DNA of 64,000 nucleotides from Crassaminicella indica (lineage in GTDB: Bacteria; Bacillota; Clostridia; Peptostreptococcales; Thermotaleaceae), in the NCBI RefSeq assembly GCF_019203185.1, contig NZ_CP078093.1, positions 2,391,058 to 2,455,057 on the forward strand. The letters run 5' to 3'. The notes below the pieces were generated by a model, which saw nothing but the letters and a program-made list of their open reading frames with translations, made no database searches and was not told where the DNA came from. The position numbers and the translations under genes are program-made. Within the stretch, counting starts at the first letter, position 1; the number at the start of each line of letters is the position of its first letter. This document shows positions 4,986 to 32,325 of the stretch, piece after piece.

Positions 4986-5037
4986 AAAAGTAGAAGGATT
5001 TTGAAAATGACGAATACATAGGGAGGGGTATTTGAAG

Positions 5038-6270: not shown

Positions 6271-6320
6271 AAGTAGACATGGATTTAGTAATACTAAACG
6301 TTATAAATATTTATCCAACT

Positions 6321-6353: not shown

Positions 6354-6370
6354 ATGAAAGGAAGCGTTTT

Positions 6371-7765: not shown

Positions 7766-7813
7766 ACTGCAAAAATATTTGCATGTACATGCAAATATTT
7801 TTGCAGTTTATTT
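7760..7813. promoter_or_regulatory. 54-bp perfect palindrome: terminator and candidate enhancer site
   Basis: The two arms are exact complements around a central TA at 7786-7787; the inner core is TTTGCATGTACATGCAAA. It overlaps the stop codon of the activator, so as RNA it makes a very strong hairpin followed by TTATTT. As DNA it lies about 160-185 bp upstream of the sigma-54 promoter, a normal distance for the binding site of a dimeric enhancer-binding protein. Both roles are inferred; only the perfect symmetry is observed. Confidence 0.8.
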
Positions 7814-7944
7814 ATATATGAAAAAAATAATATCTATAAACGAGAAAATAGTGAAAAAATAATGAATAAATATTCTGAAAATAATAAAAAACGACACTTT
7901 ATTCTATAAATCTACACAAAATATTTTATTAAAAGTGCTAAATT

Positions 7945-7961
7945 TTGGCATGAAAATTGCA
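7945..7961 (+). promoter_or_regulatory. Sigma-54 (-24/-12) promoter of the ornithine operon
   Basis: TTGGCATG-AAAA-TTGCA matches the sigma-54 consensus, with GG at 7947-7948 and GC at 7959-7960 exactly 12 bp apart. Transcription should begin near 7971, about 38 bp before ord. The sigma-54 activator gene just upstream supports it. Confidence 0.92.
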
Positions 7962-8008
7962 ATGTATAAGTATGTAAAATAAGTAAAAAATTTTCGGAGG
8001 TGTTTTAA

Positions 8009-9052
8009 ATGGAAAATGTAAAAGTAATTATTTGGGGCTTAGGTGCAATGGGAAGTGGTATGGCAGAGATGCTCCTTAAAAAGAAAGGTGTTGAAATTGT
8101 AGGGGTAGTTGGTAGAGGTAAAAAATTAGGAACAAGTATGTATGATTATTTGTCTGTTGAAAGAGGGGACAGACCTGATGTATTAATAGGAGCATATGAT
8201 GAAGTGATTACTGAAAAGGCTGCAGATGTAGTATTGCTTTGTACAGATTCTTTTACAAAAAATGCATTTGAAAAAATAAAATTCTGTTTGGAAAAGAAAA
8301 TCAATGTAATATCAAGTGCTGAAGAAATGGCTTATCCAAAGGCACAAGAACCAGAATTAACAAAAGAAATGGATAGAATTGCAAAAGAAAATGGTGTTAC
8401 TGTTCTAGGAACAGGAATTAATCCAGGGTTAATGATGGATTTATTGGTGATTGCATTGACTGGAGCATGCGAAGAAGTAGAACACTTAACAGCTAGACGT
8501 GTAAATAGTTTATCACCATTTGGACCTGCGGTTATGGAAGAACAAGGAATTGGTCTTACGGTGGAAGCTTTCAACAAAGGTGTTGAAGAAGGCACATTAG
8601 CAGGACATGTTGGTTTTGCTGAATCTGTTAATATGATCGCTGATGCAATTGGTTGGAAATTAAGTGATAAAGTAAAACAAACTATGGAGCCAATCGTTAC
8701 AAGTGTACATAGAAAATCTCCATATGCAGAAGTTCAACCAGGAGATGTAGCAGGTTGTGCTATGAAGGGATATGGATATGTTGATGGAGAATTAAAAATA
8801 GAAATGGATCATCCACAGCAAATTGAACCAGAACTCGAAGGGGTACATACAGGAGATTATATCATTATTAAAGGAACACCAAATATTAATATGGCAATCA
8901 ATCCAGAGGTGCCTGGTGGAATAGGAACAATTGCTATGTGTGTAAATATGATTCCTCATGTAATTAATGCAAGACCTGGACTTAAGACAATGATTGATTT
9001 ACCAGTACCAAGAGCTATCATGGGAGATATGAGAGATTTAATAGAAAGGTAG
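8009..9052 (+). CDS. ord: 2,4-diaminopentanoate dehydrogenase
   Basis: Third enzyme of oxidative ornithine fermentation: it oxidatively deaminates 2,4-diaminopentanoate to 2-amino-4-oxopentanoate with NAD(P). The 347-residue protein starts with a Rossmann fold (VIIWGLGAMGSGMAE) and has the dihydrodipicolinate-reductase-like architecture of Ord (GTGINPGLMMD near residue 135). The ribosome site CGGAGGTG is strong. It is the first gene after the sigma-54 promoter, and its neighbours ortA and ortB encode the next step, which fixes the assignment. Confidence 0.95.
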   Translation: MENVKVIIWGLGAMGSGMAEMLLKKKGVEIVGVVGRGKKLGTSMYDYLSVERGDRPDVLIGAYDEVITEKAADVVLLCTDSFTKNAFEKIKFCLEKKINVISSAEEMAYPKAQEPELTKEMDRIAKENGVTVLGTGINPGLMMDLLVIALTGACEEVEHLTARRVNSLSPFGPAVMEEQGIGLTVEAFNKGVEEGTLAGHVGFAESVNMIADAIGWKLSDKVKQTMEPIVTSVHRKSPYAEVQPGDVAGCAMKGYGYVDGELKIEMDHPQQIEPELEGVHTGDYIIIKGTPNINMAINPEVPGGIGTIAMCVNMIPHVINARPGLKTMIDLPVPRAIMGDMRDLIER

Positions 9053-9370: not shown

Positions 9371-10787
9371 GGACATGAGTTATGAAGGTGTAATGGCTAG
9401 AAAAAATGAAATAATGAAAAAAGCCATAGGGATAGATTATAGTATTTTTGAGTCAGGGCATATTCGTTTTGACTATGAAGAAATGATGCGTGAAACAGGA
9501 TATACTCTTGATGAAATGCAAAAAATTCAAGGGGATACAGGAGTTGGGAATACTCCTTTATTAGAATTAAAAAATTTAACTAAGCTTGCAAGAATGGTAT
9601 CGCCAGCTGGAAAAGGTGCTAGAATTTTTGTGAAAGATGAAGCGGCTAATCCATCAGGAAGTTTTAAAGCTAGAAGAGCTGCAAATGCAGTATATCATGC
9701 GAAAAAATTAGGATATAAAGGTGTTATTGCAGCAACAAGTGGAAATTATGGAGCAGCTGTAGCAAGTCAAGCTGCAATTCATGGACTTAAATGTATTATT
9801 GTACAGGAATGCTATGATAGTAAGGGGTTAGGACAACCAGAAATCATAGAAAAGGCTAGAAAATGTGAAGCTTATGGAGCAGAGGTTGTTCAACTAACAG
9901 TAGGTCCTGAGTTATTTTATACTTTTTTAAAGTTATTAGAAGAAACTGGATATTTCAATGCTTCTCTTTATTCACCATTTGGTATAGCAGGTGTTGAAAC
10001 ACTAGGATATGAAATTGCTATGCAGTTTAGAGAAAGAGTTGGAAGAGATCCAGATGTGGTTGTATGTACAAATGCAGGTGGAGGAAATTTAACAGGTACG
10101 GCTCGTGGTTTATTAAAAGCAGGTGCTGATCATGTAAAAGTTGTAGGAGCTAGTGTAGACCTAACAGGATTACATATGGCTAGTGATGAGCAATTTAATA
10201 AAAAATCATTTACCACAGGACATACTGGATTTGGTATACCTTTTGCAACATGGCCAGATAGATCGGATGTACCAAGATCAGCAGCTAGACCTCTTCGATA
10301 TATGGATAGATATGTTATTGTTACACAAGGTCAAGTGTTTTATATGACAGAAACACTTGCACAAATCGAAGGCTTAGAAAGAGGTCCAGCGGGAAATACT
10401 TCATTAGCTGCTGCTTTTAGTATTGCTCAAGAATTGGACGAAGATAAAATAATTGTTGTACAAGAAACAGAATATACAGGAGCTGGAAAACATGTTCAAC
10501 CACAATTGTCATTTGCAAGAGATAATGGAATAGAACTAAAATTTGGCAATCCAGAAGAAGAAGTTCCTGGTAAAAATATTATTTTACCAGAGCATCCAAG
10601 ATTGATAAAAGCAAAGGATATAGATTTGAATAAATTAAAGAGATCTTATATTCATCATTGTATTGAGACATATAGTAAAAATGAAATCAGTTCAGCAGAT
10701 TTAGAATTTTTAGTACAAGATACAAAATCTAGTGTTGAATTTGTAAGGGAAGTTTTAAGTGAAAAGGGAGTTAAAGTGGTGGAATAA
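9363..10787 (+). CDS. ortB: 2-amino-4-oxopentanoate thiolase, beta (PLP) subunit
   Basis: The 474-residue catalytic subunit of the thiolase is a fold type II PLP protein related to threonine synthase. The PLP lysine is in NPSGSFKARRA near residue 101. The phosphate-binding loop follows as TSGNYGAA, and a glycine-rich segment is at CTNAGGGNLTGTARG. The start is set at ATG 9363 because GGAGGTG ends 7 nt before it; the in-frame GTG at 9354 overlaps that ribosome site. A long hairpin separates it from oraS. Confidence 0.95.
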   Translation: MSRDMSYEGVMARKNEIMKKAIGIDYSIFESGHIRFDYEEMMRETGYTLDEMQKIQGDTGVGNTPLLELKNLTKLARMVSPAGKGARIFVKDEAANPSGSFKARRAANAVYHAKKLGYKGVIAATSGNYGAAVASQAAIHGLKCIIVQECYDSKGLGQPEIIEKARKCEAYGAEVVQLTVGPELFYTFLKLLEETGYFNASLYSPFGIAGVETLGYEIAMQFRERVGRDPDVVVCTNAGGGNLTGTARGLLKAGADHVKVVGASVDLTGLHMASDEQFNKKSFTTGHTGFGIPFATWPDRSDVPRSAARPLRYMDRYVIVTQGQVFYMTETLAQIEGLERGPAGNTSLAAAFSIAQELDEDKIIVVQETEYTGAGKHVQPQLSFARDNGIELKFGNPEEEVPGKNIILPEHPRLIKAKDIDLNKLKRSYIHHCIETYSKNEISSADLEFLVQDTKSSVEFVREVLSEKGVKVVE

Positions 10788-10792
10788 ACAAA

Positions 10793-10849
10793 AGAGTAAG
10801 AGTAAGTGTAAAATGAGCGATTAATTTTACATTTTCTCTTACTTACTCT
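10793..10849 (+). terminator. Intra-operon hairpin between ortB and oraS
   Basis: AGAGTAAGAGTAAG and CTTACTTACTCT pair on the outside, TGTAAAAT/ATTTTACA on the inside, followed by ATTATTTTA. It could cut transcription partway, or set unequal mRNA levels of the thiolase and mutase parts. Confidence 0.65.
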
Positions 10850-10878
10850 ATTATTTTATATGAAATGGGGGAAAAGTT

Positions 10879-11256
10879 TTGAAAGCATATTTAAAAAGAG
10901 AAGATGATTTTCAACAAAGAAGAAAGCATTTAGCAAATCTCACTGATGAAGAATTAAAGGAAAGATTTTGGGAATTAGCAGAAAAAGCTGTAGAACCATT
11001 ATTAGAACTTGCAAGAAAGAATACAACACCATCAATAGAGCGTTCGGTACTTTTAAGAATGGGATTTTCAAGCTTAGAAGCAAAACCATTAGTAGAAGGT
11101 GCAATTGAGAGAGGATTAATGGGAAAAGGTGTAGGACATATTGTTTATAGAATTGCTAAAGAGAAAAATATTCCTCTTAGACAAGCAGGGCTTGAAATGA
11201 TTGAAGGAAAGCATTGGGACGATGCTATAGAAATCTTTAGAGGGGGGGTAGCATAA
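10879..11256 (+). CDS. oraS: D-ornithine 4,5-aminomutase, small subunit
   Basis: A 125-residue partner of the B12- and PLP-dependent mutase that turns D-ornithine into 2,4-diaminopentanoate. It begins MKAYLKREDDFQQRRKHLAN and has the short helical build of OraS. The start is the TTG at 10879 behind GGGGGAAAAG; no ATG fits better. Its stop overlaps the ATG of oraE (ATAATGA), so the subunits are coupled for equal synthesis. Confidence 0.94.
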   Translation: MKAYLKREDDFQQRRKHLANLTDEELKERFWELAEKAVEPLLELARKNTTPSIERSVLLRMGFSSLEAKPLVEGAIERGLMGKGVGHIVYRIAKEKNIPLRQAGLEMIEGKHWDDAIEIFRGGVA

Positions 11257-13484
11257 TGAAAAAATTAGATATTAATGAAAAATTAGATATCAGAGAAATT
11301 TTAAAGGATCTTGAAAGCTATAGACCAAAGAGAAGAGGATGGACTTGGAGAAAAAAATTAGATAAACTTCAAATTGGACCCCATACATATCATGATTGCT
11401 CACCATCTTTAAAGAATTCTATAGGTATCCCTGCCGCAGTACAATACTTTGATAATTTAGATCCTCAACCACAAGAGACAATTACTACTGAAATCGCTTC
11501 AGGTAGATTTGAAGATGATATTAGAAGAATGAGAATGGCTGCGTGGCATGGTGCTGACCATATGATGGTAATTAGAACTGCTGGACAATCTCACTTTGAT
11601 GGATTGATAGAAGGAACACCACAGGGAATAGGGGGTATTCCTGTTACTAGAAAACAAGTTAGAGCACAAAGAAAGGCTTTGGATCTAATAGAAGAAGAAG
11701 TAGGAAGACCAATAAACTATCATTCTTATGTTAGTGGTGTTGCAGGACCTGAAGTAGCGGTTATGTTTGCAGAAGAGGGGATAAATGGTGCTCATCAGGA
11801 CCCTCAGTATAATGTTCTTTATAGAAATATTAATATGGTTAGATCTTTTGTAGATGCGGCAGAGTCTAAAAAAATAATGACATGGGCAGATATGGCACAA
11901 ATTGATGGTGCGCATAATGCGAATGCAACAGCTAGAGATGCTTGGAAAGTTATGCCTGAATTGATGGTTCAACATGCTATAAATGCAATTTTTTCGCATA
12001 AAGTAGGGATGAAGAAAGAAAATATTTGTCTTTCAACTGTACCACCGTCAGCATCTCCTGTACCTTGTATGAAATATGATCTTCCATATGCTGTGGCATT
12101 AAGAGATTTCTTTTCTGATTATAAAATGAGAGCTCAACAAAATACTAAATATATCACATCTTCATCAAGGGAAGCTACCGTAACACATGTTTTAAATATG
12201 ATGATTTCTAAACTTACAAGTGCAGATATTCAATCAACAATTACTCCTGATGAGGGAAGAAATGTTCCGTGGCATTTTAATAATATAGAAGCTTGTGACA
12301 ATGCAAAACAAACTCTTGTAGGATTAGATGGCTTATTGGAAATGGTAGAGCTTAAAAAAGAGGGCTATTTACCTGAAAAGGTTAGAGAGTTGAAAGAAAG
12401 AGCGGTACTTTTCTTAGAAGAATTAATCGAAGTAGGTGGATATTTTGAAGCAGTAGAAAAAGGATTCTTTGTAGATTCTGGTATGTATCCAGAAAGAAAT
12501 GGTGATGGAATTGGAAGAAAAATGAATGGTGGTGTAGGTGTAGGAACTGTTTTTGAAAGAGATGAAGACTACTTAGCACCTGTAACTGCTCATTATGGTT
12601 ATAATAATATTGCCCAATATGATGAGACGGCAGTAGATGATCCATCAAAATTAATTGGTGGTTGTACCTTTGAAAAACCTGAAAAAATTATCTTTATTGA
12701 TGAATTAGATGAAAATGACAATGTATATATGCGTTTAGATGAAAGCGAAAAATATAGGAATTCTAATTTTATTAAGCCTGAGGTAGAATGGTTAGCAGAC
12801 GGAACTGTTCAAGTTGAATTATTCCTTCCAACAAGTAAGAGAGTTGCTGAATTTGCAGCGTTAGAATTTGCTAAAAAAATGAATCTTTCTGATCCAGAAG
12901 TAATTCATTTAGAAATAATGCATCCATCAGAAGGAACAAGAATACAATTAAAGGGAAAAATTGATTTTGATGTTGATATAAGTAAATTAGAAATACCAGA
13001 AGAACCAAAAGTTCTTAGTGATGAAGAATTATGGGCTGAAATAGAAAAAAATCCTCTAAAGGTTGTTGCTGCTACTGTAGGAGAAGATGAACATTCTGTT
13101 GGACTTCGTGAAATTATTGATATTAAACATGGTGGCATAGAAAAATGGGGTATAGAAGTTGAATATCTTGGAACTTCTTGTCCTGTAGAAAAACTTGTAG
13201 ATGCTGCAATAGAAACTAATGCAGATGCAATTTTAGCTTCTACAATTATTAGTCATGATGATATTCACTATAAAAACATGAAGAGAATTCATGAATTATG
13301 TGTAGAAAAAGGTATAAGAGATAAAGTTATGATTGCTTGTGGAGGAACACAAGTTACACCTGAAATCGCAGTGAAACAAGGTGTAGATGCTGGATTTGGT
13401 AGAGGTTCTAAAGGCATTCATGTGGCTACATTCTTTGTAAATAAAAGAAGAGAAATGAGAAGGGAAATGAATAATGAAAATTGA
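11256..13484 (+). CDS. oraE: D-ornithine 4,5-aminomutase, large subunit (B12/PLP)
   Basis: The 742-residue catalytic subunit is a TIM barrel followed by a C-terminal Rossmann cobalamin domain. The B12-binding motif DxHxxG is seen as DEHSVG near residue 610. The downstream GTSCPVEKLVDAA and ACGGTQVTPEIA are also typical of the cobalamin domain. The enzyme needs adenosylcobalamin and PLP, and mutases of this kind inactivate during turnover, which fits the reactivase-like gene that overlaps its 3' end by 11 bp. Confidence 0.96.
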   Translation: MKKLDINEKLDIREILKDLESYRPKRRGWTWRKKLDKLQIGPHTYHDCSPSLKNSIGIPAAVQYFDNLDPQPQETITTEIASGRFEDDIRRMRMAAWHGADHMMVIRTAGQSHFDGLIEGTPQGIGGIPVTRKQVRAQRKALDLIEEEVGRPINYHSYVSGVAGPEVAVMFAEEGINGAHQDPQYNVLYRNINMVRSFVDAAESKKIMTWADMAQIDGAHNANATARDAWKVMPELMVQHAINAIFSHKVGMKKENICLSTVPPSASPVPCMKYDLPYAVALRDFFSDYKMRAQQNTKYITSSSREATVTHVLNMMISKLTSADIQSTITPDEGRNVPWHFNNIEACDNAKQTLVGLDGLLEMVELKKEGYLPEKVRELKERAVLFLEELIEVGGYFEAVEKGFFVDSGMYPERNGDGIGRKMNGGVGVGTVFERDEDYLAPVTAHYGYNNIAQYDETAVDDPSKLIGGCTFEKPEKIIFIDELDENDNVYMRLDESEKYRNSNFIKPEVEWLADGTVQVELFLPTSKRVAEFAALEFAKKMNLSDPEVIHLEIMHPSEGTRIQLKGKIDFDVDISKLEIPEEPKVLSDEELWAEIEKNPLKVVAATVGEDEHSVGLREIIDIKHGGIEKWGIEVEYLGTSCPVEKLVDAAIETNADAILASTIISHDDIHYKNMKRIHELCVEKGIRDKVMIACGGTQVTPEIAVKQGVDAGFGRGSKGIHVATFFVNKRREMRREMNNEN

Positions 13485-14887: not shown

Positions 14888-15952
14888 ATGAATATCTGTC
14901 CAAGAATAGAAGTGAACTTAAATAAGATAAGACACAATACTAAAGTATTAAAAGAACTGTGTGAAAAATCAAATATCATGTTAGCAGGTGTAACAAAGGT
15001 TTTCTGTGCTATTCCAGAAGTTGCAAAGGAAATCGTAAAGGGCGGAGTAGATATGCTTGCTGATTCAAGAATAGAAAATTTAAAAAAGCTAAAAGATATA
15101 AATATTCCAAAGCTTCTCTTAAGGTTGCCTATGAATAGCAGAGTAGAAGATGTAGTAAGATATGCAGATATTAGTCTAAATTCGGAATTAAAAACTATTG
15201 AATCACTTTCAAATGAAGCTATTAAACAGAATAAGGTACATAACATTGTATTGATGGTAGATTTAGGTGATTTAAGAGAGGGTGTATGGAGAAGTGATGT
15301 AGTTGATACAGTAAAAGAAATATTGAAATTTAAAGGAGTAAAATTAATAGGAATAGGAACAAACTTAACTTGTTATGGAGGAGTAATTCCTTCTAAAGAA
15401 AATTTAGGATGGCTTTCAGAATTAGCAAATACTATAGAGAAGGAATTTGGTATTACTTTAGAAATTATATCAGGGGGAAATTCAAGCAGTTTGCATTTAC
15501 TTGAAAAAGGAGAAATGCCAGAAAAAATTAATCATTTAAGGCCCGGAGAAGCGATTTTATTAGGAAGAGAAACAGCTTATGGTAAAGTGATCAAAGATAC
15601 TTATCAAGATGCATTTACTTTTGTTGCAGAGATTATTGAGTTGAAGGAAAAGCCATCTATACCTATTGGTGAAATTGGAATGGATGCATTTGGAAACAAG
15701 CCAACTTTTGCAGATAAAGGAATTCGAAAAAGAGCTATTCTTGCTGTAGGAAGGCAGGATGTATCTGTTGAAAATTTAATACCTATAGATAAAAACATAG
15801 AAATACTTGGAGCAAGTAGTGACCATTTAATTCTTGATGTAACAGATGTTCAAAAAGATTTAAAGGTTGGAGATGAAATACGATTTAATGTTGAATATGG
15901 TGCGCTTCTTCAGTTGAGTACATCAGAATATATCCATAAAAGCATTCAATAA
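14888..15952 (+). CDS. orr: Ornithine racemase
   Basis: A PLP-dependent alanine-racemase-fold enzyme of 354 residues that converts L-ornithine to the D-ornithine used by OraSE. The N-terminus PRIEVNLNKIRHN leads to the PLP lysine in LAGVTKVF near residue 38. GGNSSSLHLL and the end of the barrel follow. It lacks the extra C-terminal domain of larger alanine racemases, as expected for Orr. AAGGGGAGGG is a strong ribosome site. It is the last gene of the operon and supplies the first reaction of the pathway. Confidence 0.92.
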   Translation: MNICPRIEVNLNKIRHNTKVLKELCEKSNIMLAGVTKVFCAIPEVAKEIVKGGVDMLADSRIENLKKLKDINIPKLLLRLPMNSRVEDVVRYADISLNSELKTIESLSNEAIKQNKVHNIVLMVDLGDLREGVWRSDVVDTVKEILKFKGVKLIGIGTNLTCYGGVIPSKENLGWLSELANTIEKEFGITLEIISGGNSSSLHLLEKGEMPEKINHLRPGEAILLGRETAYGKVIKDTYQDAFTFVAEIIELKEKPSIPIGEIGMDAFGNKPTFADKGIRKRAILAVGRQDVSVENLIPIDKNIEILGASSDHLILDVTDVQKDLKVGDEIRFNVEYGALLQLSTSEYIHKSIQ

Positions 15953-15977
15953 CCCACACAATGTGGGTTTATTTTTT
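15951..15977 (+). terminator. Terminator of the ornithine operon
   Basis: ACCCACA/TGTGGGT hairpin starting in the orr stop codon, followed by TTATTTTTTTG. Confidence 0.88.
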
Positions 15978-16047
15978 TGTGAATTTATAGTCAATACAGT
16001 AAACTTCAGAATATAATGTATCAAAAACTACTTTGGAGTTGAAAAAA

Positions 16048-16329
16048 ATGGTTTATAGTTATGAAAAATATTTGATTGTTTTTTCATCTAACTATCATGG
16101 ATATTATATCGAACAAATGTTTAATAGAAATGGAATAAAAAATACTTTAAGGAAAGCTCCTAGAGCTATTGCAAAATCATGTTATTCTGCTATTTATATA
16201 CAGGAGCAGGATTTGGATAAAGCTTTAAAATTACTTGAAAAATCTAAAATATCTCCACATGGTATATATGAAATTATTAGAATAGGGAGTTTTTTAGATT
16301 ATAAAAAATTACAAGGAGGAAAAGAATGA
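16048..16329 (+). CDS. DUF3343 protein (putative Se/S carrier-like)
   Basis: A 93-residue soluble protein with the DUF3343 pattern: YLIVFSSNYHGYYIEQMF at the start and a cysteine in AKSCYSAIYI near residue 48. Family members occur in anaerobes and are annotated as possible selenium or sulfur carriers, which is unproven. The ATG at 16048 is used because TGGAG lies 9 nt upstream; TTG codons at 16033 and 16039 are in frame but fit the ribosome site less well. Its stop overlaps the start of the glycosyltransferase gene by 4 bp, an unusual partner for the family. Confidence 0.72.
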   Translation: MVYSYEKYLIVFSSNYHGYYIEQMFNRNGIKNTLRKAPRAIAKSCYSAIYIQEQDLDKALKLLEKSKISPHGIYEIIRIGSFLDYKKLQGGKE

Positions 16330-17528
16330 GTCAATCTTTCAACACTTTATTTGAAAATAAACAATATAAAGATGCATTAGATTTGTATAACAGTTCTTTT
16401 AGCTTGAAAGCTAATTTATATAAAGTTATTACAGTGAAGGATTTTTGCATTGATAACAACTATAATTATTTAGTTGTAGAAAAAGAGAAGCCTAGAGAGA
16501 TATTGATTCCCTATTATTATGGAAGTAAAGAACCAGAAAAGATAAAAAAGGTTATATCGCCAGAAATATATGTTGCTGAATTAGAGAATGCAAACATTAT
16601 TGGTGGAAATAGTGCTATTATAGTGAACGATTATTGTTTATACGATATGGCTAAAAGAGATAATCAAGCTAGATATGATCTAAGATGTGAGTCAATTAAA
16701 AATATCGATAAGAATTATGCAGTAATAGGATCTATGAATTCAAATGAAGTATTTAAAGAAGCTATTTCTCTAGTTGGAGTTGCACCGTATAATTATTATC
16801 ACTTTACTGTAGAATTACTTTCTAGGCTTCAATACGTTGATCAATTTGAAGAATATCGTTATATGCCTTTGCTTATAGATGAAATGGGATTTAATATTCC
16901 ACAGCATCGTGAATTGCTTCATATAATAAATAAATTCAATCATCCTATAATACCTATTAAAAAAAATTATAGGTATAAAATTAAAAAGTTAATTTATCCT
17001 TCTTATAATACATGGATGCCTATTAATAAAAAAGCATGGATAAAGTCAAAGCCTGAAGACTATTTAATAGCAGATTCAGCTGTTGAATATATAAGAAATA
17101 ATGTTTTAAATAATATTAAGTCAAAAGGGCATAAAAAGATCTTTATTTCAAGAAAAAATTGTAAAAATGTAAGATTAATTAATCATGAAGAAGTAGTTGA
17201 ACTTTTTAAAAAGTATGGCTTTGAAATAATATATCCAGAAAATGCTAAATTTCAACAACAGGTTAAGTTGTTCTCAGAAGCTGAATATATAGCAGGTGTA
17301 ACAGGATCAGGTTTTACAAATATATTGTATTGTTCTAGTAATGCTAAAGTGCTGTGTATCATTCCTAAAGAGCATGGTTCTTGTTTATATTCAACAATTA
17401 GCAAAATATTAGGTTTGAAATGTATTTTTTTAGATGCGAAAGTGATTACTAAGAGGAAAAGAGCTTTTGCTGATCGGAGTAAACTAGATATTAATTATTG
17501 CCGTGATTGTTTAAACAATCTGCTATAA
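16326..17528 (+). CDS. GT61-family (DUF563) glycosyltransferase
   Basis: A 400-residue protein. Its C-terminal 250 residues fit the GT61/DUF563 family: NYYHFTVELLSRLQY near residue 157, KKIFISRKNCKNVRLINHEE near 270, and GVTGSGFTNILYC near 325, the conserved ending with the Gly-Ser-Gly loop. No membrane segment is seen. It should transfer a sugar in the cytoplasm, to an acceptor that cannot be told from the sequence. It is co-transcribed with the DUF3343 gene and probably with the MaoC and CitE genes. Confidence 0.78.
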   Translation: MSQSFNTLFENKQYKDALDLYNSSFSLKANLYKVITVKDFCIDNNYNYLVVEKEKPREILIPYYYGSKEPEKIKKVISPEIYVAELENANIIGGNSAIIVNDYCLYDMAKRDNQARYDLRCESIKNIDKNYAVIGSMNSNEVFKEAISLVGVAPYNYYHFTVELLSRLQYVDQFEEYRYMPLLIDEMGFNIPQHRELLHIINKFNHPIIPIKKNYRYKIKKLIYPSYNTWMPINKKAWIKSKPEDYLIADSAVEYIRNNVLNNIKSKGHKKIFISRKNCKNVRLINHEEVVELFKKYGFEIIYPENAKFQQQVKLFSEAEYIAGVTGSGFTNILYCSSNAKVLCIIPKEHGSCLYSTISKILGLKCIFLDAKVITKRKRAFADRSKLDINYCRDCLNNLL

Positions 17529-17555
17529 TAATGCAAAATATTAGAGGTGAGAAAG

Positions 17556-18017
17556 GTGTCTCAATTTGGTAGATATTATGAAGAATTTACTGTAGGAGAA
17601 GTAATCAAGCATGATAAAACAAAGACGATTTTAGAAAGTGATAATAATCTTTTTTCATTACTAACGATGAATCATCATCCAGTACATTTAGATAAAGAGT
17701 ATTGTAAAGGACAGAGGTATAAACAAATTTTAGTTGTAGGTACACTAGTTTTTAGCTTAGTAGTGGGGTTGACAGTTTCAGATATTAGTGGAAAAGCTAT
17801 AGCGAATTTAGATTATGAAAAAGTAACGCATAATAAACCTGTGTTTATAGGAGATACATTGCATGCTGAAACAAAAATATTAGATAAAAGAGAGTCAAAT
17901 AGTAAGAATGATTGTGGCATTATCTATGTAGAAACAAAAGCCTACAATCAAAAAGGAGAAGAGGTATTAACCTTTAGGAGACATGTGTTAATACCTAAAA
18001 GGGGATTATTAAAATGA
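17556..18017 (+). CDS. MaoC-like hydratase/dehydratase (hot-dog fold)
   Basis: A 153-residue single hot-dog domain. MaoC-type enzymes add or remove water from enoyl-CoA or hydroxyacyl-CoA. Family features are FGRYYEEFTVGEVIKHD at the N-terminus, NHHPVHLDKEYCKGQ near residue 45 (with the catalytic His region) and LVVGLTVSDISG. The GTG at 17556 is preferred (AGAGGTGA just upstream); the in-frame GTG at 17547 lies inside that site. Its stop overlaps the CitE-like gene by 4 bp. Such MaoC/CitE pairs act on branched C5 acyl-CoAs in other bacteria (mesaconyl/itaconyl hydratase with citramalyl-CoA lyase). Confidence 0.82.
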   Translation: MSQFGRYYEEFTVGEVIKHDKTKTILESDNNLFSLLTMNHHPVHLDKEYCKGQRYKQILVVGTLVFSLVVGLTVSDISGKAIANLDYEKVTHNKPVFIGDTLHAETKILDKRESNSKNDCGIIYVETKAYNQKGEEVLTFRRHVLIPKRGLLK

Positions 18018-18928
18018 AAAGGAAAGAGTATTTATTAAGAAGCATATTGTTCGTACCAACCTATAAAGAAAAGTTTATTCAAAAAGCAATACACACAGGA
18101 GCAGATGCGTTGATTTTAGATTTGGAAGATTCAGTTCCAGAGGTTTATAAACAGAAGGGAAGAGAAATCATAAAAAAATATATCGATAAAGGTGTATTTA
18201 AAAATTTGCAAGTATTTGTTAGATTAAATCCTATAGAGAGTAAAATTTTATTGAAAGATTTAAAATATGTGTTGCATGAAGATATTGATGGGTTTATGTT
18301 AACAAAAATAAGAACAGCAGAGGATATGATTTATTATGATAAGCTTATTACTCAATTAGAAATAGATAAAAATATTGAAGCTGGACATTTTACATTTATG
18401 CCTTTAATTGAAACAACATTAGCAATAATGAATGCATATCATATTGCTAGTGCTTCAGATAGAACTATTGCATTAACTTTTGGAGGAGAAGATTTCTTAA
18501 ATGATCTAGAAGGATTACATGGAAATCCGCCAAGATGTTTTGATTATCCAAGAGCATATATTGCATTAGCGGCTAGAGCAGCTGGAATTAAGGCAATAGA
18601 TACCCCTTATTTAGCTGTAAATGATACGAAAGGATTTATAAAAGAAGAATCAGTATCCTTTGAAATGGGATTTTCAGGTTGTCTATTATTACATCCAAAA
18701 CAGATAGCATTAGCAAACCAATGCTTTGTACCTAGTCCTGAAGAAGTACAAAAATCAAGGGAGATTATAAAAAGCATAGAAGAAGCTAACAAACGGGGTT
18801 CTGGAGTAGCTATGCTTGAAAATAAAATGATTGGTCCTCCAATGAAAAAGCGAGCAGAGAAAGTGCTTAGAATAATAGAATTAATTGAACAAAAAGTAAA
18901 ATTGGAAGTAATGCATGAAGAGAGGTGA
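18014..18928 (+). CDS. CitE-like beta-hydroxyacyl-CoA lyase (HpcH/HpaI family)
   Basis: A 304-residue TIM-barrel protein of the citrate lyase beta/malyl-CoA lyase family. Seen are RSILFVPTYKEKFIQKA, DALILDLEDSVP near residue 37 (metal site Asp/Glu), FMPLIETTLAIMNAY and LTFGGEDFLNDLEG, and KAIDTPYLAVND. No citrate lyase alpha or gamma genes are nearby, so it is a stand-alone CoA lyase acting on a beta-hydroxyacyl-CoA such as malyl-, citramalyl- or a related thioester. Overlap with the MaoC gene points to consecutive reactions. Confidence 0.85.
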   Translation: MKRKEYLLRSILFVPTYKEKFIQKAIHTGADALILDLEDSVPEVYKQKGREIIKKYIDKGVFKNLQVFVRLNPIESKILLKDLKYVLHEDIDGFMLTKIRTAEDMIYYDKLITQLEIDKNIEAGHFTFMPLIETTLAIMNAYHIASASDRTIALTFGGEDFLNDLEGLHGNPPRCFDYPRAYIALAARAAGIKAIDTPYLAVNDTKGFIKEESVSFEMGFSGCLLLHPKQIALANQCFVPSPEEVQKSREIIKSIEEANKRGSGVAMLENKMIGPPMKKRAEKVLRIIELIEQKVKLEVMHEER

Positions 18929-18933
18929 ATCAA

Positions 18934-19596
18934 TTGGAAAAGAAGATCATTATTTTAGGTGGGGAAGGGAATGGTGGTGTAGTAGCTGCTTGTATTCTTG
19001 ATATGAATAATCGTTTTAAAAATAAGGAATTAAGACTTTGTGGTTTTCTAAATGATACCTTAAAAATTGGGGAAAAGATTAATGGATATCCTGTAATGGG
19101 AAAAACAGATGATATTCAAAAATTTATTAAAGAGGGGTATTATTTTGTTTTTGCTATTCATCCAATTGGACATGGGAAAACAAGAATTGATTTATTTGAT
19201 CATTTAAATATTCCTGAAGATAGATTATTAACTATTGTACATCCATCATCTTTTATAGCATATAATGCAAAACTATCACCAGGAGTAGTTGTGATGCCGA
19301 ATTGTTATATTGCTACAAAGACAAAAATTGGAGTATGTACTTTAGTAATGGCAAATAGTGTAATAGGCCATAATAATTGTATAGGGAGATTATGCCATTT
19401 TTCTGCTGGATCTGTAACAGGATCTTATATTAATATGGGAGATGCTTCAGATATTGGATTAAATGCAACTGTTTTAGAAAAAATTCAAATAGGTACTTGT
19501 TCAGTAGTAGGAGCAGGATCACTAGCAAGAAAAAATATTGGTGATTATGAAATTCATGTAGGCTGTCCAGCAAAGCTTTTAAGAATTTGTAAATAG
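18934..19596 (+). CDS. NeuD/PglD-type sugar N- or O-acyltransferase
   Basis: A 220-residue protein with a Rossmann-like N-terminal domain (IIILGGEGNGGVVAAC) for the nucleotide sugar and a C-terminal left-handed beta helix of hexapeptide repeats, with the catalytic His in SVIGHNNCIG near residue 148 and the end VGCPAKLLRI. Family members transfer an acyl group from acyl-CoA to an amino sugar or sialic acid. The TTG at 18934 is used (AGAGGTG upstream); the GTG at 18925 overlaps the ribosome site. It directly follows two CoA-ester enzymes, so the acyl donor may be the product of MaoC/CitE instead of acetyl-CoA. Confidence 0.82.
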   Translation: MEKKIIILGGEGNGGVVAACILDMNNRFKNKELRLCGFLNDTLKIGEKINGYPVMGKTDDIQKFIKEGYYFVFAIHPIGHGKTRIDLFDHLNIPEDRLLTIVHPSSFIAYNAKLSPGVVVMPNCYIATKTKIGVCTLVMANSVIGHNNCIGRLCHFSAGSVTGSYINMGDASDIGLNATVLEKIQIGTCSVVGAGSLARKNIGDYEIHVGCPAKLLRICK

Positions 19597-19632
19597 TAAA
19601 TCCTCATTGGCAATCAGCTAATGAGGATTTAT
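19597..19632. terminator. Bidirectional terminator between convergent sugar genes
   Basis: AAATCCTCATT pairs with AATGAGGATTT. A-rich and T-rich flanks on both sides suit both the acyltransferase gene and the minus-strand aminotransferase. Confidence 0.85.
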
Positions 19633-19638
19633 TTTGCA

Positions 19639-20736
19639 TTAAGACCAAGTATTAAGTGCGTCTATGATATAGTTTAGTTCATTTTCTTGTAGACCATACC
19701 ATATGGGTAAGCTCAAAACTTCGTTTGAAATTTTTTCTGCTATAGGAAAAGTGCTTTTTTGAAATCCTAAATTTTTATAAGCATTCTGTAAATGTATGGG
19801 TATAGGGTAATGAATTAAAGTTTGTATGCCCTTGTTCATCAAGTATTTTTGTAGGTGATCACGTTTATTTGTTCTAATGACAAATAAATGCCATACTGGT
19901 TCAGTGTTTTTTTGGATAAATGGTTTGATAATTTTTTTGTTTTTTATATTTTCTAAATAAATATTAGCTATTTTTCTTCGTTCTTTATTCCATGAATCTA
20001 AGTATTTTAATTTAACATTTAAAAAGGCAGCTTGGAGTTCATCAAGTCTAGAATTTATACCCATGTATTCATGATAATATTTTTGAGTAGAGCCATAATT
20101 TCTAAGAGCAATGATTTTTTGAGCTAATATTTTATCATTTGTTACTACAGCACCTGCATCACCTAATGCACCTAAATTTTTTCCTGGATAAAAGCTAAAA
20201 CCAGCTGCATCACCAAAACATCCTATTTTTTTATTGAAATATTTAGCTCCATGTGCTTGTGCACAATCTTCAATTAACTTTAAATTATATTTTTTTGATA
20301 TTTTAATGATTTTATTTATTTCAGCTGGATGACCATATAAATGAACAGCAATAATAGCTTTAGTTTTTTTTGAAATAGATTTTTCTATTAGCTTTGGATT
20401 TATATTATAGGTTTTTAAGGTTGGTTCAACAAATATAGGTACAGCTCCAGTATAAGAAACGGCTAATGCAGTTGCTATATAGGTATTTGAAGGGATAATT
20501 ACTTCATCACCTTTTCCAATATTATATCCTCGTAAAATAAGATATAAAGCATCTAAGCCATTTCCGCAGCCAATACAGTATGGTTGATCACAAAATTTAG
20601 CAAAATTTTTTTCAAATTCATTTACATTATTACTTAATATATATTCATTAGATGAAAAGGTCTGATTAAATTTATTCATAATTTCTTCTTTTGTTTGATC
20701 ATGTATTGGTTTGAGATTAACAAAAGGAATTTTCAA
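19639..20736 (-). CDS. dTDP-3-keto-6-deoxyhexose aminotransferase, FdtB/QdtB type
   Basis: A 365-residue PLP enzyme of the DegT/DnrJ/EryC1 family. It opens with [17 protein letters not shown], has the [13 protein letters not shown] loop, the Asp-Cys-Ala motif [13 protein letters not shown], and the PLP lysine in [17 protein letters not shown] near residue 187. It starts with TTG at 20736, one base after the stop of the FdtA-like isomerase. That pairing marks it as the transaminase that makes a 3-amino-3,6-dideoxyhexose (Fuc3N or Qui3N type) on dTDP. The dTDP-glucose genes rmlA/rmlB are not in the window. Confidence 0.87.
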
Positions 20737-20737
20737 A

Positions 20738-21160
20738 CTAATTCACTTCTTTCTTAAAATAATGTTTTGCTTCATCTAAATAGGAGTTATAATCTCTTAT
20801 ATAATCATTAGCATTATAGTAATCAGAAGCTAATACTAATAATACTGCATCTTCCGAAAAATTAAACATTTCTCGCCAAATCATAGGACCTATATAAAGT
20901 CCTTCAGATTGAGTATTTAAAGAAATGATTTGTTCTTCTAGAGGGGTTTTAATACGAACCTGAATGCTTCCCTTTATGCATATTAAAATTTGGTGAAGTT
21001 TTCGATGGGCATGATGTCCTCTTACTATATCTTTTTTTACCCCCCAAATATAATAAAGTCTTTTAATAGGAAAGGGAATATCTATGTTTTCTTCAATAGG
21101 TACTAAATTACCATATTTATCATGAATGTTTTTAAATTTAATAAGGGTAGAGTTGTACAT
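20738..21160 (-). CDS. dTDP-4-keto-6-deoxyglucose 3,4-ketoisomerase, FdtA/QdtA type
   Basis: A 140-residue cupin. The FdtA/WxcM signature is visible: [20 protein letters not shown] (the catalytic His cluster), RIKTPLEE and [23 protein letters not shown]. The enzyme moves the keto group from C4 to C3 of a dTDP-6-deoxyhexose ahead of transamination. The ATG at 21160 is chosen because AAGGTGA precedes it; the ATG at 21178 lies before that ribosome site. It is the first gene of a two-gene minus-strand operon. Confidence 0.87.
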
Positions 21161-21250
21161 AAAATTTATCACCTTCATATTATTTTTATATTTACCAAAT
21201 TCAATATTTTTTCTAATATAGTATATTGAAGTATGTTATTTTGGACACGA

Positions 21251-22930: not shown

Positions 22931-23752
22931 ATGTATAAGCCAACAACTTGTGGAACTAGCATGTATACTCCAGGTGTAATTCCAGAAGAGTTGAGAGATC
23001 AATTTGGAAATGCATGTGAATTAGTTTGTGTTCAGGTCCCAAAAGTTTATGATTCATGTTTGCTGAAAGCATGCTTAGTAGGAGAACCTGAGAAAGCGAA
23101 GCCAGAAGAAAAAATTTTCTTTGATTCAGATCTTCGTGTCAGAATTGATTGTAGTGCAGACGGCATTGTAAATCCAAGAGTTGTAGGTATTGTTCCTGGA
23201 TCTTTTAGAATTATTAATAAAAAGCCTATTCTTAGTGATCCAGATAGAAAATTCATTTCCTACACATATCAATTAAAAATATTATATGATGTAGTATATG
23301 ATGATGGAACAATATCTAAAGACAATGAATTACTATTAAGAAGAAGTGAAACAGTTGGACCTTTGTATTGTCCAGAAGCAAGATCCTTTATTCGAGAACA
23401 AAAGATAGATCAATCAGGAACAATAAGGCCTGCAACAGATGAAGATGATGAGATCATTAAATTAGAAGTAGTTGCTAGAGTACTTGATGCTCAAATCATA
23501 AGAGAAGATTGTGATACGCCATGTGATCCATATGATGATATATGCTATGCAGTATTCACTGTAGGAATTTTCAATATCATAAAATGTGAATTAATAGTAC
23601 AGTTAGTTATACCAGCTTTTGGATTCTGTCCGCCACCTGCACCTTGTGAAAATTTGGGAGAACCTTGTGAAATATTTAATCAAGAATTTCCACCTGATTT
23701 CTTCCCACCACAATTAGATGATTTTATTACTGGACCTGGAATAGATTGTTAA
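22931..23752 (+). CDS. Cysteine-rich putative spore/surface protein, copy 1
   Basis: A 273-residue protein with 15 cysteines, no signal peptide and no membrane segment. It has KVYDSCLLKAC near residues 38-48, a beta-rich middle (YTYQLKILYDVVYDDG), PEARSFI, a second beta block (CYAVFTVGIFNIIKCELIV), and the end FPPDFFPPQLDDF. The same motif order occurs in the protein at 24196, so the two are diverged paralogues. The alternation of strands resembles SPOCS-type (SipL/DUF3794) spore coat domains, but I cannot confirm that. Ribosome site AAAAGGGGG. A role in the spore coat or exosporium is inferred from cysteine content, the sigma-K-like promoter and flanking glycosyltransferases. Confidence 0.6.
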   Translation: MYKPTTCGTSMYTPGVIPEELRDQFGNACELVCVQVPKVYDSCLLKACLVGEPEKAKPEEKIFFDSDLRVRIDCSADGIVNPRVVGIVPGSFRIINKKPILSDPDRKFISYTYQLKILYDVVYDDGTISKDNELLLRRSETVGPLYCPEARSFIREQKIDQSGTIRPATDEDDEIIKLEVVARVLDAQIIREDCDTPCDPYDDICYAVFTVGIFNIIKCELIVQLVIPAFGFCPPPAPCENLGEPCEIFNQEFPPDFFPPQLDDFITGPGIDC

Positions 23753-24195: not shown

Positions 24196-24945
24196 ATGAC
24201 GAAAAGCATCTCAAATTATAATCAATCAATACAACGAAAGCTTTCTGAACCTGTTCCTTATGCAACCTATAATAGACATATGAATAAATCTATCAATGGG
24301 AAATATTCTAAAGCTTTAACACAAGCTACAGAACAAGCATATATTTTAGCAGATAAAGTATATGCTTATTGTCAACAAAAAGATTGCTTTCCAAAGTTTA
24401 AAAAGACACTTCCTAATAATAAAGATATATTTCAATTTATTGGTATAATTTTTAAGGAAGGATACATAGCTGAAGGAACGCTGAAAGTTACAGCTATAGG
24501 AGCAAAAAGACCTAATTATTCTAGAGTAAAATTTGTTTTAAAAGTCCCTTTTACAATAAAATTGAGAAATACAGTTTCTGGTGAGTTTGTAAGTATATCT
24601 GGTTTGCTTCCAGATATATATAAAGATGTTGTTTTATATATGCCAGAAGCAAGAAATGAATTTAGCTTTAAAATTGTTGTAGAAACTCGTTCGGAAGTAT
24701 TAGCACCTCCGGAAATAATTGAAAATAAAATTGAAATTCCAATAGGAGTATTATCAGTAATTAGAGTAGTTGGTAAAATTCAGTTGTCAATACCTGTTTA
24801 TAACTCTCCACTAGAACCTCCTGAAGCTGAAAATTATGAGGAAACAGAAAAGTTTATACGTCAAGAATTTGATCATCGGCCATTTCCAGATGATTTTTTT
24901 CCTCTTCAATTGGAGGACTCAGATTTTCAAATACCTAAAAAATAA
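24196..24945 (+). CDS. Putative spore/surface protein, copy 2
   Basis: A 249-residue protein, basic at the N-terminus and acidic at the C-terminus, with no signal peptide or membrane segment. It shares the layout of the protein at 22931: KVYAYCQQKDC near residues 54-64, a beta-rich middle (VKFVLKVPFTIKLRN), PEARNEF, a second beta block (VLSVIRVVGKIQLSIPVYN), and the end FPDDFFPLQLED. It has only two cysteines, against 15 in copy 1. AAGGAAGGAG lies 8 nt before the ATG. The function is unknown; the shared C-terminal motif may be a docking or assembly signal. It is followed by its own terminator and a glycosyltransferase gene. Confidence 0.6.
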   Translation: MTKSISNYNQSIQRKLSEPVPYATYNRHMNKSINGKYSKALTQATEQAYILADKVYAYCQQKDCFPKFKKTLPNNKDIFQFIGIIFKEGYIAEGTLKVTAIGAKRPNYSRVKFVLKVPFTIKLRNTVSGEFVSISGLLPDIYKDVVLYMPEARNEFSFKIVVETRSEVLAPPEIIENKIEIPIGVLSVIRVVGKIQLSIPVYNSPLEPPEAENYEETEKFIRQEFDHRPFPDDFFPLQLEDSDFQIPKK

Positions 24946-32049: not shown

Positions 32050-32325
32050 AAGTTAATGAGAAAAAGAAAAATGATAAAATACAATGATGAAGAGGAGTAC
32101 AAAAACATAAAATCTGTAGAGAGGAAGTCCATTGGCTGAAAGACTTCTGATTTGAGTTTTTGGAAGCAGCTTCGGAGTATTGACCTTGAAATATTAGTAA
32201 AGGGCAGTGGCTTGCAACCATTATAGTGCTAGGTATTGATAAGAGAGACCAAAGTATTTTGGTAAGTAGGGTGGTACCGCGAGAATACTCTCGTCCCTAT
32301 ATGGGATGAGAGTTTATTTTTGTAT
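32050..32325 (+). promoter_or_regulatory. T-box riboswitch (alanine) ahead of alaS
   Basis: The conserved T-box AGGGTGGTACCGCG is at 32268-32281. Upstream are the stem I elements AGTA (32096-32099), AGAGAGGAAGTC and the distal loop GGCTGAAAG, then a region with GCA/GCU triplets (GGAAGCAGCTTCGG, 32162-32175) suitable as an alanine specifier. The terminator is ACTCTCGTCCC/GGGATGAGAGT at 32287-32313 followed by TTATTTTT. Uncharged tRNA-Ala should pair with the T-box and stop termination, raising alaS expression. It explains the stretch 31961-32347, which has no gene. Confidence 0.95.

Follow-up and report, generated by a model that had tools for sequence, protein, structure and literature searches.

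The dTDP-Qui3N pathway of Thermoanaerobacterium proceeds through the enzymes RmlA, RmlB, QdtA, QdtB and QdtC, the last of which acetylates. Anthrose of Bacillus anthracis is a second system with a dedicated acyl group, in which a hydroxyacyl moiety made by its own acyl-making genes is carried on an amino dideoxyhexose; it is, however, a 4-amino sugar with a monocarboxylic C5 group (3-hydroxy-3-methylbutyryl) and is made without a CitE-type enzyme. The two enzyme families MaoC and CitE occur together in the mesaconyl-CoA hydratase/malyl-CoA lyase pair of the ethylmalonyl-CoA pathway and in the RipB/RipC pair of itaconate degradation. In Flavobacterium psychrophilum, the O-antigen R-group genes combine a PglD homologue with strain-variable dedicated acyl-making genes, predicted to be N-acyl determinants, and use an acyl carrier protein together with fatty-acid-synthesis-like genes (as described in parts of PMC6519341). 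The type B flagellin glycan of Clostridioides difficile contains a 3-amino-3,6-dideoxyhexose whose N-acyl substituent is unusual and has a putative acyltransferase gene, but the sugar is Fuc3N and the substituent is a taurine-containing peptide made by other enzymes (passages of PMC5207245).

Here, we analyze a 64,000-nucleotide stretch of the Crassaminicella indica genome (the window), in which maoC, citE and neuD-type genes face two amino-sugar genes. As in the dTDP-Qui3N pathway there are QdtA- and QdtB-type genes and a dTDP route, but the acyltransferase is of the NeuD/PglD type and is accompanied by MaoC and CitE. The ketoisomerase points to a 3-amino sugar, unlike anthrose; the candidate acyl-making enzymes are MaoC and CitE-type, with no carrier protein seen, unlike those of F. 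psychrophilum; and as in C. difficile an unusual N-acyl group on a 3-amino-deoxyhexose is predicted, with a putative acyltransferase gene, in a member of the Clostridia. The ethylmalonyl-CoA and RipB/RipC pairs share both enzyme families with the window, but differ in lacking the glycan context and in having Asp where the window clade has Gly at a catalytic lid. We are not aware of any gene route by which sugars receive dicarboxylic N-acyl groups; the portions of the literature that were searched yielded neither such a route nor a recognizable maoC-citE-neuD-type cassette, and neither MaoC nor a lyase occurs in the flagellin-glycosylation papers searched for them.

Gene organization and the amino-sugar pathway

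The maoC, citE, neuD-type, aminotransferase and ketoisomerase genes (Table 1) all lie approximately where an earlier note on this DNA had placed them, and its description of an overlapping hydratase/lyase pair directly before a NeuD-type gene and facing amino-sugar genes holds. The overlap is of four bases at both the maoC/citE and citE/neuD junctions, and the Se/S-carrier-like gene likewise overlaps the glycosyltransferase family 61 (GT61) gene by four bases; a terminator-like hairpin and T-run, identified by eye, lies upstream at approximately 15951-15978. The maoC-citE-neuD and aminotransferase/ketoisomerase groups are convergent and do not form a single operon, which counts against the pathway proposed below. 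The GT61 product is a candidate user of the acylated sugar.

Table 1. Coordinates of features at the acyl cassette and neighboring amino-sugar genes
Feature	Position	Strand	Evidence
Se/S-carrier-like small protein, first gene of presumed transcription unit	16033..16329	+	PF11823 E 4.4e-17
Glycosyltransferase family 61	16326..17528	+	PF04577 E 7.4e-24; end 18 bases upstream of maoC
MaoC-type enoyl-CoA hydratase, probably mesaconyl-/beta-methylmalyl-CoA type	17547..18017	+	PF01575 (MaoC, E 1.2e-21), PF19315
CitE-like, malyl-CoA lyase type (CitE1 clade)	18014..18928	+	PF03328 (HpcH_HpaI) E 1.5e-40
NeuD/PglD/VioB-type sugar N-acyltransferase	18925..19596	+	PglD_N + hexapeptide repeats
Hairpin, probable terminator common to both convergent gene groups	19597..19631	.	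dG -20.9 kcal/mol, z -6.4
QdtB/FdtB-type aminotransferase (DegT family)	19639..20736	-	PF01041 E 1.5e-113
QdtA-type dTDP-4-keto-6-deoxyglucose 3,4-ketoisomerase	20738..21178	-	FdtA family E 3.6e-49

The ketoisomerase, previously labeled FdtA, is better described as QdtA-type: it matches QdtA 4o9e (E 5.6e-58) more closely than FdtA 2pa7 (E 4.8e-38), and its DKYGNL and IWREMF motifs supply Tyr and Arg, as in 4o9e, at positions that we take to be Tyr17 and Arg97 in QdtA numbering. FdtA 2pa7 has Arg and His there, as does the QdtA entry 4zu7, and it is this choice of pair that sets ketoisomerase stereochemistry. Because the ketoisomerase is QdtA-type, the sugar is probably dTDP-Qui3N rather than Fuc3N, which we set aside on the same grounds, and the adjacent aminotransferase is called QdtB on account of its neighbor. 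The enzymes for the preceding steps are encoded elsewhere in the genome, where an RmlB (485 bits, cut-off 365) adjoins an RmlA homologue approximately 0.46 Mb from the window genes along the shorter arc of a chromosome taken to be circular, or 2.3 Mb along the contig; this separation also counts against the pathway. RmlA and RmlB would provide dTDP-4-keto-6-deoxyglucose, from which QdtA is predicted to shift the keto group and QdtB to aminate, giving dTDP-Qui3N.

The acyltransferase has the domains of the NeuD/PglD/VioB family (PF17836 and PF00132) and its match among solved structures is VioB (7txp, E 1.1e-18). It scores 147.5 bits against TIGR03570 (E 3.6e-43), which is under the curated cut-off of 160.8, as does its 57% identical relative at locus L029 (147.5 bits), while that of L002 is over it (164.7 bits). 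The His of the Gly-His motif is the catalytic base in these enzymes, and this column of the hexapeptide-repeat region is kept in all seven acyltransferases compared.

Recurrence with different amino-sugar pathways

Related loci were gathered by CitE similarity alone, giving ten in addition to the window, from Bacillota, Synergistota and one Caldisericota bin. A single-protein scan of genome contigs found five loci, and a profile (A1) built from the window and L002-L006 was used to survey 391, 397, 20, 398, 185 and 393 genomes at cut-offs of 1e-60 to 1e-75, counts that cannot be summed because the surveys overlap. L029 and L079 score 7e-78 and 4e-77 against 1e-64 for the best ordinary CitE, so the edge of this CitE1 clade is not wide. 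L006 and L031 are one place.

To look for neighbors up to 6 kb from citE, we used a fixed set of reference genes (E 1e-15), which genes unlike the references would escape. An intact maoC is present in nine of the 11 loci, neuD in eight and an aminotransferase gene in six, whereas none of the three is found at any of 13 control citE loci of the same class. Both maoC and neuD lie within 6 kb, or the distance to the contig end, in 8/11 clade loci and 0/13 controls (Fisher p 2e-4). The controls are all 13 non-window places from one profile search, in 11 genomes; contig ends shorten three of them (L061, L068, L070) and four clade loci (L006, L027, L028, L078).

Amino-sugar genes accompany the cassette in varied arrangements. 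L029 contains rmlB, an FdtA-family gene, an aminotransferase gene, rmlA, a flippase gene, maoC, neuD and citE; at L003, FdtA-family and FdtB-like genes flank maoC-neuD-citE-citE2, together with a methylmalonyl-CoA decarboxylase-like subunit gene that is consistent with propionyl- or methylmalonyl-CoA. The ketoisomerases of both loci differ from the window protein at the Tyr/Arg positions, and their type is assigned without confidence. At L079, rmlA-rmlB precede maoC-citE-neuD, and L004 has rmlA, rmlB and a DesI-like aminotransferase gene, with neuD 3.2 kb from citE2. L002 is a pseudaminic-type flagellar locus in which maoC, citE and neuD occupy the expected position of PseH; no PseH scores over cut-off in that genome, although a divergent PseH may escape this search. 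There are also incomplete members: L005 has citE1-citE2 with maoC and neuD absent, L078, which starts near a contig end, has maoC-citE with neuD absent across 14 kb, and the L028 cassette is decayed. The amino-sugar reference genes have no match in the searched spans of L005, L006, L027, L028 and L078.

Gene order differs between loci, and the partner sugar pathways are variously 3-amino, 4-amino and pseudaminic-type. Because the partner pathway differs, maoC-citE-neuD is probably a transferable cassette that both makes and attaches an acyl group, distributed across scattered bacteria. Carriage by viruses or plasmids was considered and rejected: no relative is present among viral contigs, and 78 plasmid matches are all below 60% identity, the best-ranked (36%) being a lyase gene adjoining citD. 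The genes, their overlaps and enzyme families, the QdtA type and this recurrence, as read from the sequences, are best explained by a cassette dedicated to acylating an amino sugar, an explanation that we regard as somewhat probable as a whole. The earlier note had proposed an unusual hydroxyacyl group on a 3-amino-deoxyhexose; the association of the pair with amino-sugar N-acylation is borne out by its presence in amino-sugar loci including L029 and by the PseH position, but the identity of the acyl group is not.

CitE1, MaoC and the nature of the acyl group

The window CitE matches malyl-CoA lyase 5ugr (E 3e-31) and CLYBL 5vxc (E 3.7e-31), and retains the metal and substrate site of the CitE-like superfamily (E133, D160, E38, D39 and R70). 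The catalytic lid Asp, however, is replaced by Gly274, a departure from the superfamily; Gly is present in all 11 clade members and Asp in all 13 control CitE proteins, while intact CitE1 proteins show no variation at the other catalytic residues that were checked. For the superfamily lid Asp (Asp299/Asp318) the proposed role is in handling the proton of the enolate, and Glu at this position is described only in malyl-CoA thioesterase relatives (parts of PMC3832036). With all 11 proteins lacking the lid Asp, Claisen chemistry by CitE1 is not assured.

CitE1 forms a clade with support of 95/93 in a tree from which L078 and L079 are absent, L028 is omitted and the Streptomyces CitE reading is trimmed; in the same analysis a separate clade for the cassette MaoC proteins was rejected (support 63/43 against six plasmid homologues, Streptomyces nearest). 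A paralogue with Glu at the lid position, CitE2, adjoins CitE1 in 4/11 loci, but the two are not an obligate pair: in a genome-wide search that excluded the L004 genome, the window genome has no CitE2 and, besides CitE1, just a weak partial match (E 3.8e-5). The top three Foldseek matches of an AlphaFold model of CitE are malyl-CoA lyases (TM 0.57-0.60, rmsd near 18-20 A); the model, from six input sequences, is modest (mean pLDDT 73.1, below 50 at 198-234) and therefore backs the fold only. A genuine citrate lyase is rejected (215.8 of 443.4 bits against the citE model; no citD/citF-like neighbor seen by eye in the window), as is RipABC itaconate degradation, for which the RipC model against CitE (E 4.9e-43, 147.6 of 375 bits) and the RipB/Ich itaconyl-CoA hydratase model against MaoC (E 1.3e-43, 148.9 of 340 bits) are both far under their NCBIfam cut-offs and no CoA-transferase gene is seen by eye in the window.

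MaoC has the hot-dog domain of its family, and its best structural-database sequence match is beta-methylmalyl-CoA dehydratase 8hgn (E 2.9e-30). In place of the Asp-x4-His motif MaoC has Asn-x4-His, a variant that 8hgn and 4e3e carry in their second domains and that may mark the mesaconyl-/beta-methylmalyl-CoA substrate class. The best plasmid match of MaoC (52% identity) lies in a Streptomyces cluster with genes for a crotonyl-CoA carboxylase/reductase, a mutase, a malyl-type lyase and an acyl-CoA dehydrogenase, which we take to be the ethylmalonyl-CoA-pathway layout. Given the resemblance of MaoC to beta-methylmalyl-CoA dehydratase and of CitE to malyl-CoA lyase, the transferred group is probably dicarboxylic (malyl-, methylmalyl- or mesaconyl-like), rather than the monocarboxylic group of anthrose or the usual acetyl. 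In the pathway that we infer, whose reactions, direction, acyl group and final glycan are predictions from these families, CitE would condense a short acyl-CoA, either acetyl- or propionyl-CoA, with glyoxylate or pyruvate as the 2-keto acid. The product would be malyl-, methylmalyl- or citramalyl-CoA, in which one carboxylate stays free; MaoC would interconvert this product with a mesaconyl-type enoyl form, and the NeuD-type enzyme would move the resulting acyl group onto the 3-amino group. A surface glycan may then receive the sugar through a neighboring GT61 or GT4 enzyme. Amino sugars bearing malyl, a dicarboxylic group, are known (sections of PMC3210612).

Alternative readings and implications

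The anthrose-like logic favored by the earlier note fits poorly with these homologues, the nearest of which handle dicarboxylic malyl-, methylmalyl- or mesaconyl-CoA, which leads us to expect a free carboxylate. As a class, MaoC-type hydratases do act on branched monocarboxylic and 3-hydroxybutyryl-type substrates, and MaoC could hydrate a branched monocarboxylic enoyl-CoA (e.g. 3-methylcrotonyl-CoA), or make 3-hydroxybutyryl-CoA, for transfer by NeuD, with CitE only supplying or removing a precursor. A Rhizobium homologue pair (MaoC 46%) adjoins methylcrotonyl-CoA carboxylase genes, and hydroxybutanoyl groups on amino sugars are known (sections of PMC3210612), but we consider this route unlikely: dicarboxylic-CoA compounds feature in the role or context of both the nearest MaoC relative of solved structure and the best plasmid match, CitE retains the Mg/Glu/Asp/Arg site that in Rv2498c binds the substrate carboxylate (parts of PMC6689899), and neither a ketoacyl-CoA reductase nor a thiolase is encoded by the three overlapping genes. 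More improbable still, and to us very hard to credit, is that MaoC and CitE degrade a C5 dicarboxylate (itaconate or mesaconate) and are chance neighbors of an ordinary acetyltransferase. Homologous MaoC-CitE pairs do lie in plasmid clusters of catabolic appearance, which in Azospirillum also hold genes for a CoA transferase, a PrpD-family protein and an acyl-CoA dehydrogenase, and in Tistrella a gene for an acyl-CoA dehydrogenase; the purely catabolic pair, which the earlier note had set against its own proposal, is disfavored by the association of maoC with neuD in the clade but not at ordinary citE loci, by the PseH position of the L002 cassette, and by the reading frames beside the window cassette, among which no CoA-transferase, transporter or acyl-CoA dehydrogenase was seen by eye, unlike several catabolic-looking homologues.

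The lid change itself raises the question of whether CitE1 has kept metal and CoA-ester binding but lost C-C bond chemistry, acting as an acyl-CoA hydrolase, isomerase or chaperone, with the acyl group coming from MaoC acting on a cellular enoyl-CoA. The uniform Gly/Asp distinction from the controls is in favor, as is the neighboring CitE2, whose Glu is that of malyl-CoA thioesterases (parts of PMC3832036), but invariance of the other checked catalytic residues would be unusual for a lost activity, and we hold this reading to be doubtful. As a tentative possibility, a little less doubtful, the CitE1 clade may be a new synthetic C-C bond-forming enzyme without the lid acid, perhaps working from a pre-formed enolate (by malonyl- or methylmalonyl-CoA decarboxylation), which with MaoC and NeuD would form a cassette that spreads horizontally and attaches malyl-, methylmalyl- or mesaconyl-type acids to amino sugars as chemically different as Qui3N, 4-amino sugars and pseudaminic acid precursors.

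The genes that decide which N-acyl group a surface amino sugar carries have an influence on antigenicity (parts of PMC6519341). The change from Asp to Gly at the lid poses a question of mechanism in a family of enzymes that is well studied. The lid-acid-free cassette, if that reading is true, would to our knowledge be the first set of genes found to give sugars dicarboxylic N-acyl groups. If the acyl-cassette reading holds, the signature of MaoC, lid-Gly CitE and NeuD would allow dicarboxylic modifications to be predicted from gene content in Clostridia, Bacilli and Synergistota.

Gene layout and probable sugar pathway of the window

All five genes that the earlier note had assigned to a maoC/citE/neuD group and a facing amino-sugar locus were found, with clear families (see table). 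They lie on a low-GC chromosome of 2.76 Mb, assembled as a single contig. Four bases are shared at the maoC/citE junction and again at citE/neuD, a GT61 glycosyltransferase gene ends 18 bases upstream of maoC, and a strong hairpin (dG -20.9 kcal/mol, z -6.4) is located where the plus- and minus-strand groups converge.

Features of the window and of related loci
Sequence	Feature	Position	Strand	Assignment
Window	maoC	17547-18017	+	MaoC family match
Window	citE	18014-18928	+	HpcH_HpaI family match
Window	neuD	18925-19596	+	PglD_N and hexapeptide repeats
Window	aminotransferase	19639-20736	-	DegT family match
Window	ketoisomerase	20738-21178	-	FdtA family match
Window	transposase-like gene	2125-3584		two adjacent reading frames (by eye)
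Window	paired proteins	22931-23752; 24196-24945		no Pfam match
Window	T-box leader	32075-32301		142.8 bits
Window	alanyl-tRNA synthetase-like gene	from 32306		by eye
Window	sigK-like gene, N-terminal half	47438-47893		by eye
Window	serine recombinase-like gene	47835-49463	opposite to sigK-like halves	by eye
Window	sigK-like gene, C-terminal half	50047-50427		by eye
Window	Cyclic di-GMP-II riboswitch	50686-50768		61.5 bits, gathering 53.5
Window	type IV pilus-like gene cluster	from 50851		by eye
L002	CitE2	10893-11726		follows CitE1, lid Glu
L003	CitE2	10872-11675		follows CitE1, lid Glu
L004	CitE2	10896-11678		follows CitE1, lid Glu
L005	CitE2	7352-8170		follows CitE1, lid Glu
L005	citE1-citE2 pair	6457-8170		no maoC or neuD
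L028	decayed cassette	9959-11301		broken neuD, maoC remnants
L037	DUF6385 proteins	1105-6445		window genome contig, about 105-110 kb

By sequence, the closest solved structures are beta-methylmalyl-CoA dehydratase for MaoC (8hgn, 2.9e-30), malyl-CoA/beta-methylmalyl-CoA lyase (5ugr, 3e-31) and human CLYBL (5vxc, 3.7e-31) for CitE, and VioB for the acyltransferase (7txp, 1.1e-18). Curated models for citE, RipC and RipB also matched window proteins but far under cut-off, and these names were rejected. In MaoC an Asn replaces the usual hydratase Asp, as it does in the second domain of two-domain dehydratases and in 6/6 plasmid homologues. The top plasmid match (52%) is on a Streptomyces plasmid, adjoining a crotonyl-CoA carboxylase/reductase (636.6 bits, cut-off 378.55) and beside a methylmalonyl-CoA mutase-like protein, a malyl-type lyase and an acyl-CoA dehydrogenase; if this cluster encodes the ethylmalonyl-CoA pathway, as we infer, its MaoC would be a mesaconyl-CoA hydratase.

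The facing genes had been named FdtA/FdtB, and while ketoisomerase and aminotransferase genes are indeed present, the ketoisomerase is of the QdtA rather than the FdtA type. It matches QdtA 4o9e at 5.6e-58 and FdtA 2pa7 at 4.8e-38, and keeps the Tyr and Arg of QdtA at positions where FdtA and QdtA entry 4zu7 have Arg and His, a residue pair that we take to be a marker of product type. Because of the match and the Tyr/Arg pair, dTDP-Qui3N is the probable product of this route. Precursor genes for a dTDP sugar are present in the same genome: near 0.11 Mb of the contig, RmlB (485 bits, cut-off 365) forms a row with genes resembling RmlA, RmlD and RmlC. RmlA reaches 243.8 bits where its model requires 360.65, and RmlD and RmlC were read by eye. 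One of the two DUF6385 proteins that adjoin these rml genes and glycosyltransferase-like genes has a CBM96 domain, and this region is perhaps another surface-glycan locus.

Elsewhere in the window, the two proteins without Pfam match have a common C-terminal FPxDFFPxQL (BLASTP E 1e-6) and adjoin a GT4 glycosyltransferase. A sigK-like gene appears split around a serine recombinase-like gene, and the region (47438-50427) looks like a very small skin-type element; just beyond it the riboswitch is followed immediately by the pilus-like cluster. The T-box leader directly precedes the synthetase-like gene, and a transposase-like gene is spread over two frames.

Distribution and context of related loci

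Related loci were gathered by CitE search alone, giving eleven including the window. The initial search of genome contigs returned five, in Alkaliphilus peptidifermentans (L002), a Lachnospiraceae bin (L003), Allobacillus salarius (L004), a Caldisericia bin (L005) and a Synergistaceae bin (L006). A survey of the phylum of L006 (4/185 genomes matched, its own among them) added L027, L028 and L029, and one of the window's order (4/393, the other two being the window and Alkaliphilus again) added L078 and L079. Only the window itself was recovered in its class (1/391 genomes at 1e-70) and phylum (1/398 at 1e-75), the L003 family yielded 2/397 at 1e-60 (its own and one ordinary CitE), and none of 15 listed genomes of the window's family (three of the same genus, two less than 80% complete) had a match to the clade. 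The clade of the cassette CitE (CitE1) is thus rare, and its scattered distribution suggests horizontal transfer. Complete cassettes occur in two of the phyla sampled, Bacillota and Synergistota, and the Caldisericota bin has the CitE pair only.

When the surroundings of citE were searched to a distance of 6 kb, or as far as the contig end, maoC was present in 9/11 members and in none of 13 ordinary CitE loci from the same class (Fisher p 4e-5), neuD in 8/11 versus 0/13 (p 2e-4), and a DegT aminotransferase in 6/11 versus 0/13 (p 3e-3). L005 has neither maoC nor neuD in this span; its citE1-citE2 pair, amid genes for apparently secreted proteins, is possibly another use of the pair. L078 has maoC and no neuD in the 14 kb of sequence covered, and L028 has decayed neuD and maoC beside a frameshifted citE.

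Gene order varies (maoC-citE-neuD, maoC-neuD-citE and neuD-maoC-citE), and the partner sugar genes differ by locus: qdtA/qdtB in the window, FdtA-family and FdtB-like genes in L003, rmlA, rmlB and a DesI-like aminotransferase in L004, and rmlA, rmlB and aminotransferases in L079. L029 encodes rmlB, an FdtA-family gene, an aminotransferase, rmlA, a flippase, maoC, neuD and citE, its NeuD being 57% identical to that of the window. No gene of a fixed amino-sugar reference set matched in the span searched around citE in L005, L006, L027, L028 or L078. In L002, where reading by eye places flagellar genes upstream of the locus, PseB, PseC and PseG are above cut-offs, a NeuB/PseI-type synthase is under them, a PseF-like gene is discernible by eye, and maoC-citE-citE2-neuD sits between PseB and PseF. 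This locus has no PseH gene, and the best match across the genome (58 of 93.1 bits) is under cut-off.

Lid residue and candidate acyl group

In the CitE-like superfamily and in malate synthases the lid Asp is described as conserved, except that malyl-CoA thioesterases have Glu, and the enolate proton step is assigned to it (PMC3832036). All 13 control CitE proteins have this Asp; the cassette CitE has Gly in 8/8 complete proteins, and also in L028 (in a second frame), L078 and L079. A paralogue with a lid Glu, CitE2, lies beside citE in 4/11 loci, and Glu also occurs in L041 and L044, out of four plasmid homologues; a genome search found no CitE2 in the window genome. In the tree CitE1 (support 95/93) is separate from CitE2 (99/97) and ordinary CitE. 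Either the lid-Gly enzyme would proceed without a lid acid, for example with a decarboxylated donor, or it would have a different activity.

In Rv2498c the metal, together with the backbone of a loop with the sequence Ala-Glu-Asp, binds the substrate carboxylate (PMC6689899). The metal ligands and a corresponding Gly-Glu-Asp are kept in the cassette CitE, so a product with a free carboxylate should be expected: malyl, methylmalyl, citramalyl, HMG, or an enoyl form from MaoC. A methylmalonyl-CoA decarboxylase alpha-like subunit in L003 (699.3 bits, under the cut-off of 998.8) hints at involvement of propionyl- or methylmalonyl-CoA. Amino sugars with malyl and 2-hydroxyglutaryl groups are known structures, as is a 3-hydroxy-2,3-dimethyl-5-oxoproline group on Qui3N (PMC3210612). 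The proposed likeness to anthrose holds for its logic and not beyond, given the free carboxylate expected here.

Parallels and proposed role

A dedicated acyl maker with an amino-sugar acyltransferase is a kind of system already known, from strain-specific R-group genes of Flavobacterium psychrophilum, among them fatty-acid-like genes alongside a PglD homologue (PMC6519341), and from Clostridioides difficile type B flagellin, in which Fuc3N bears a taurine peptide (PMC5207245). No MaoC/CitE-based acyl-making system was found in literature searches, weak evidence of absence with most subscription journals outside their scope, and the passages searched in PMC13317340 and PMC5109656 mention neither MaoC nor a lyase. 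Reading the three genes as an acyl cassette has good support. The cassette would perform N-acylation in amino-sugar pathways of different kinds, for which its place in a pse-type locus without PseH, in L002, is the best argument.
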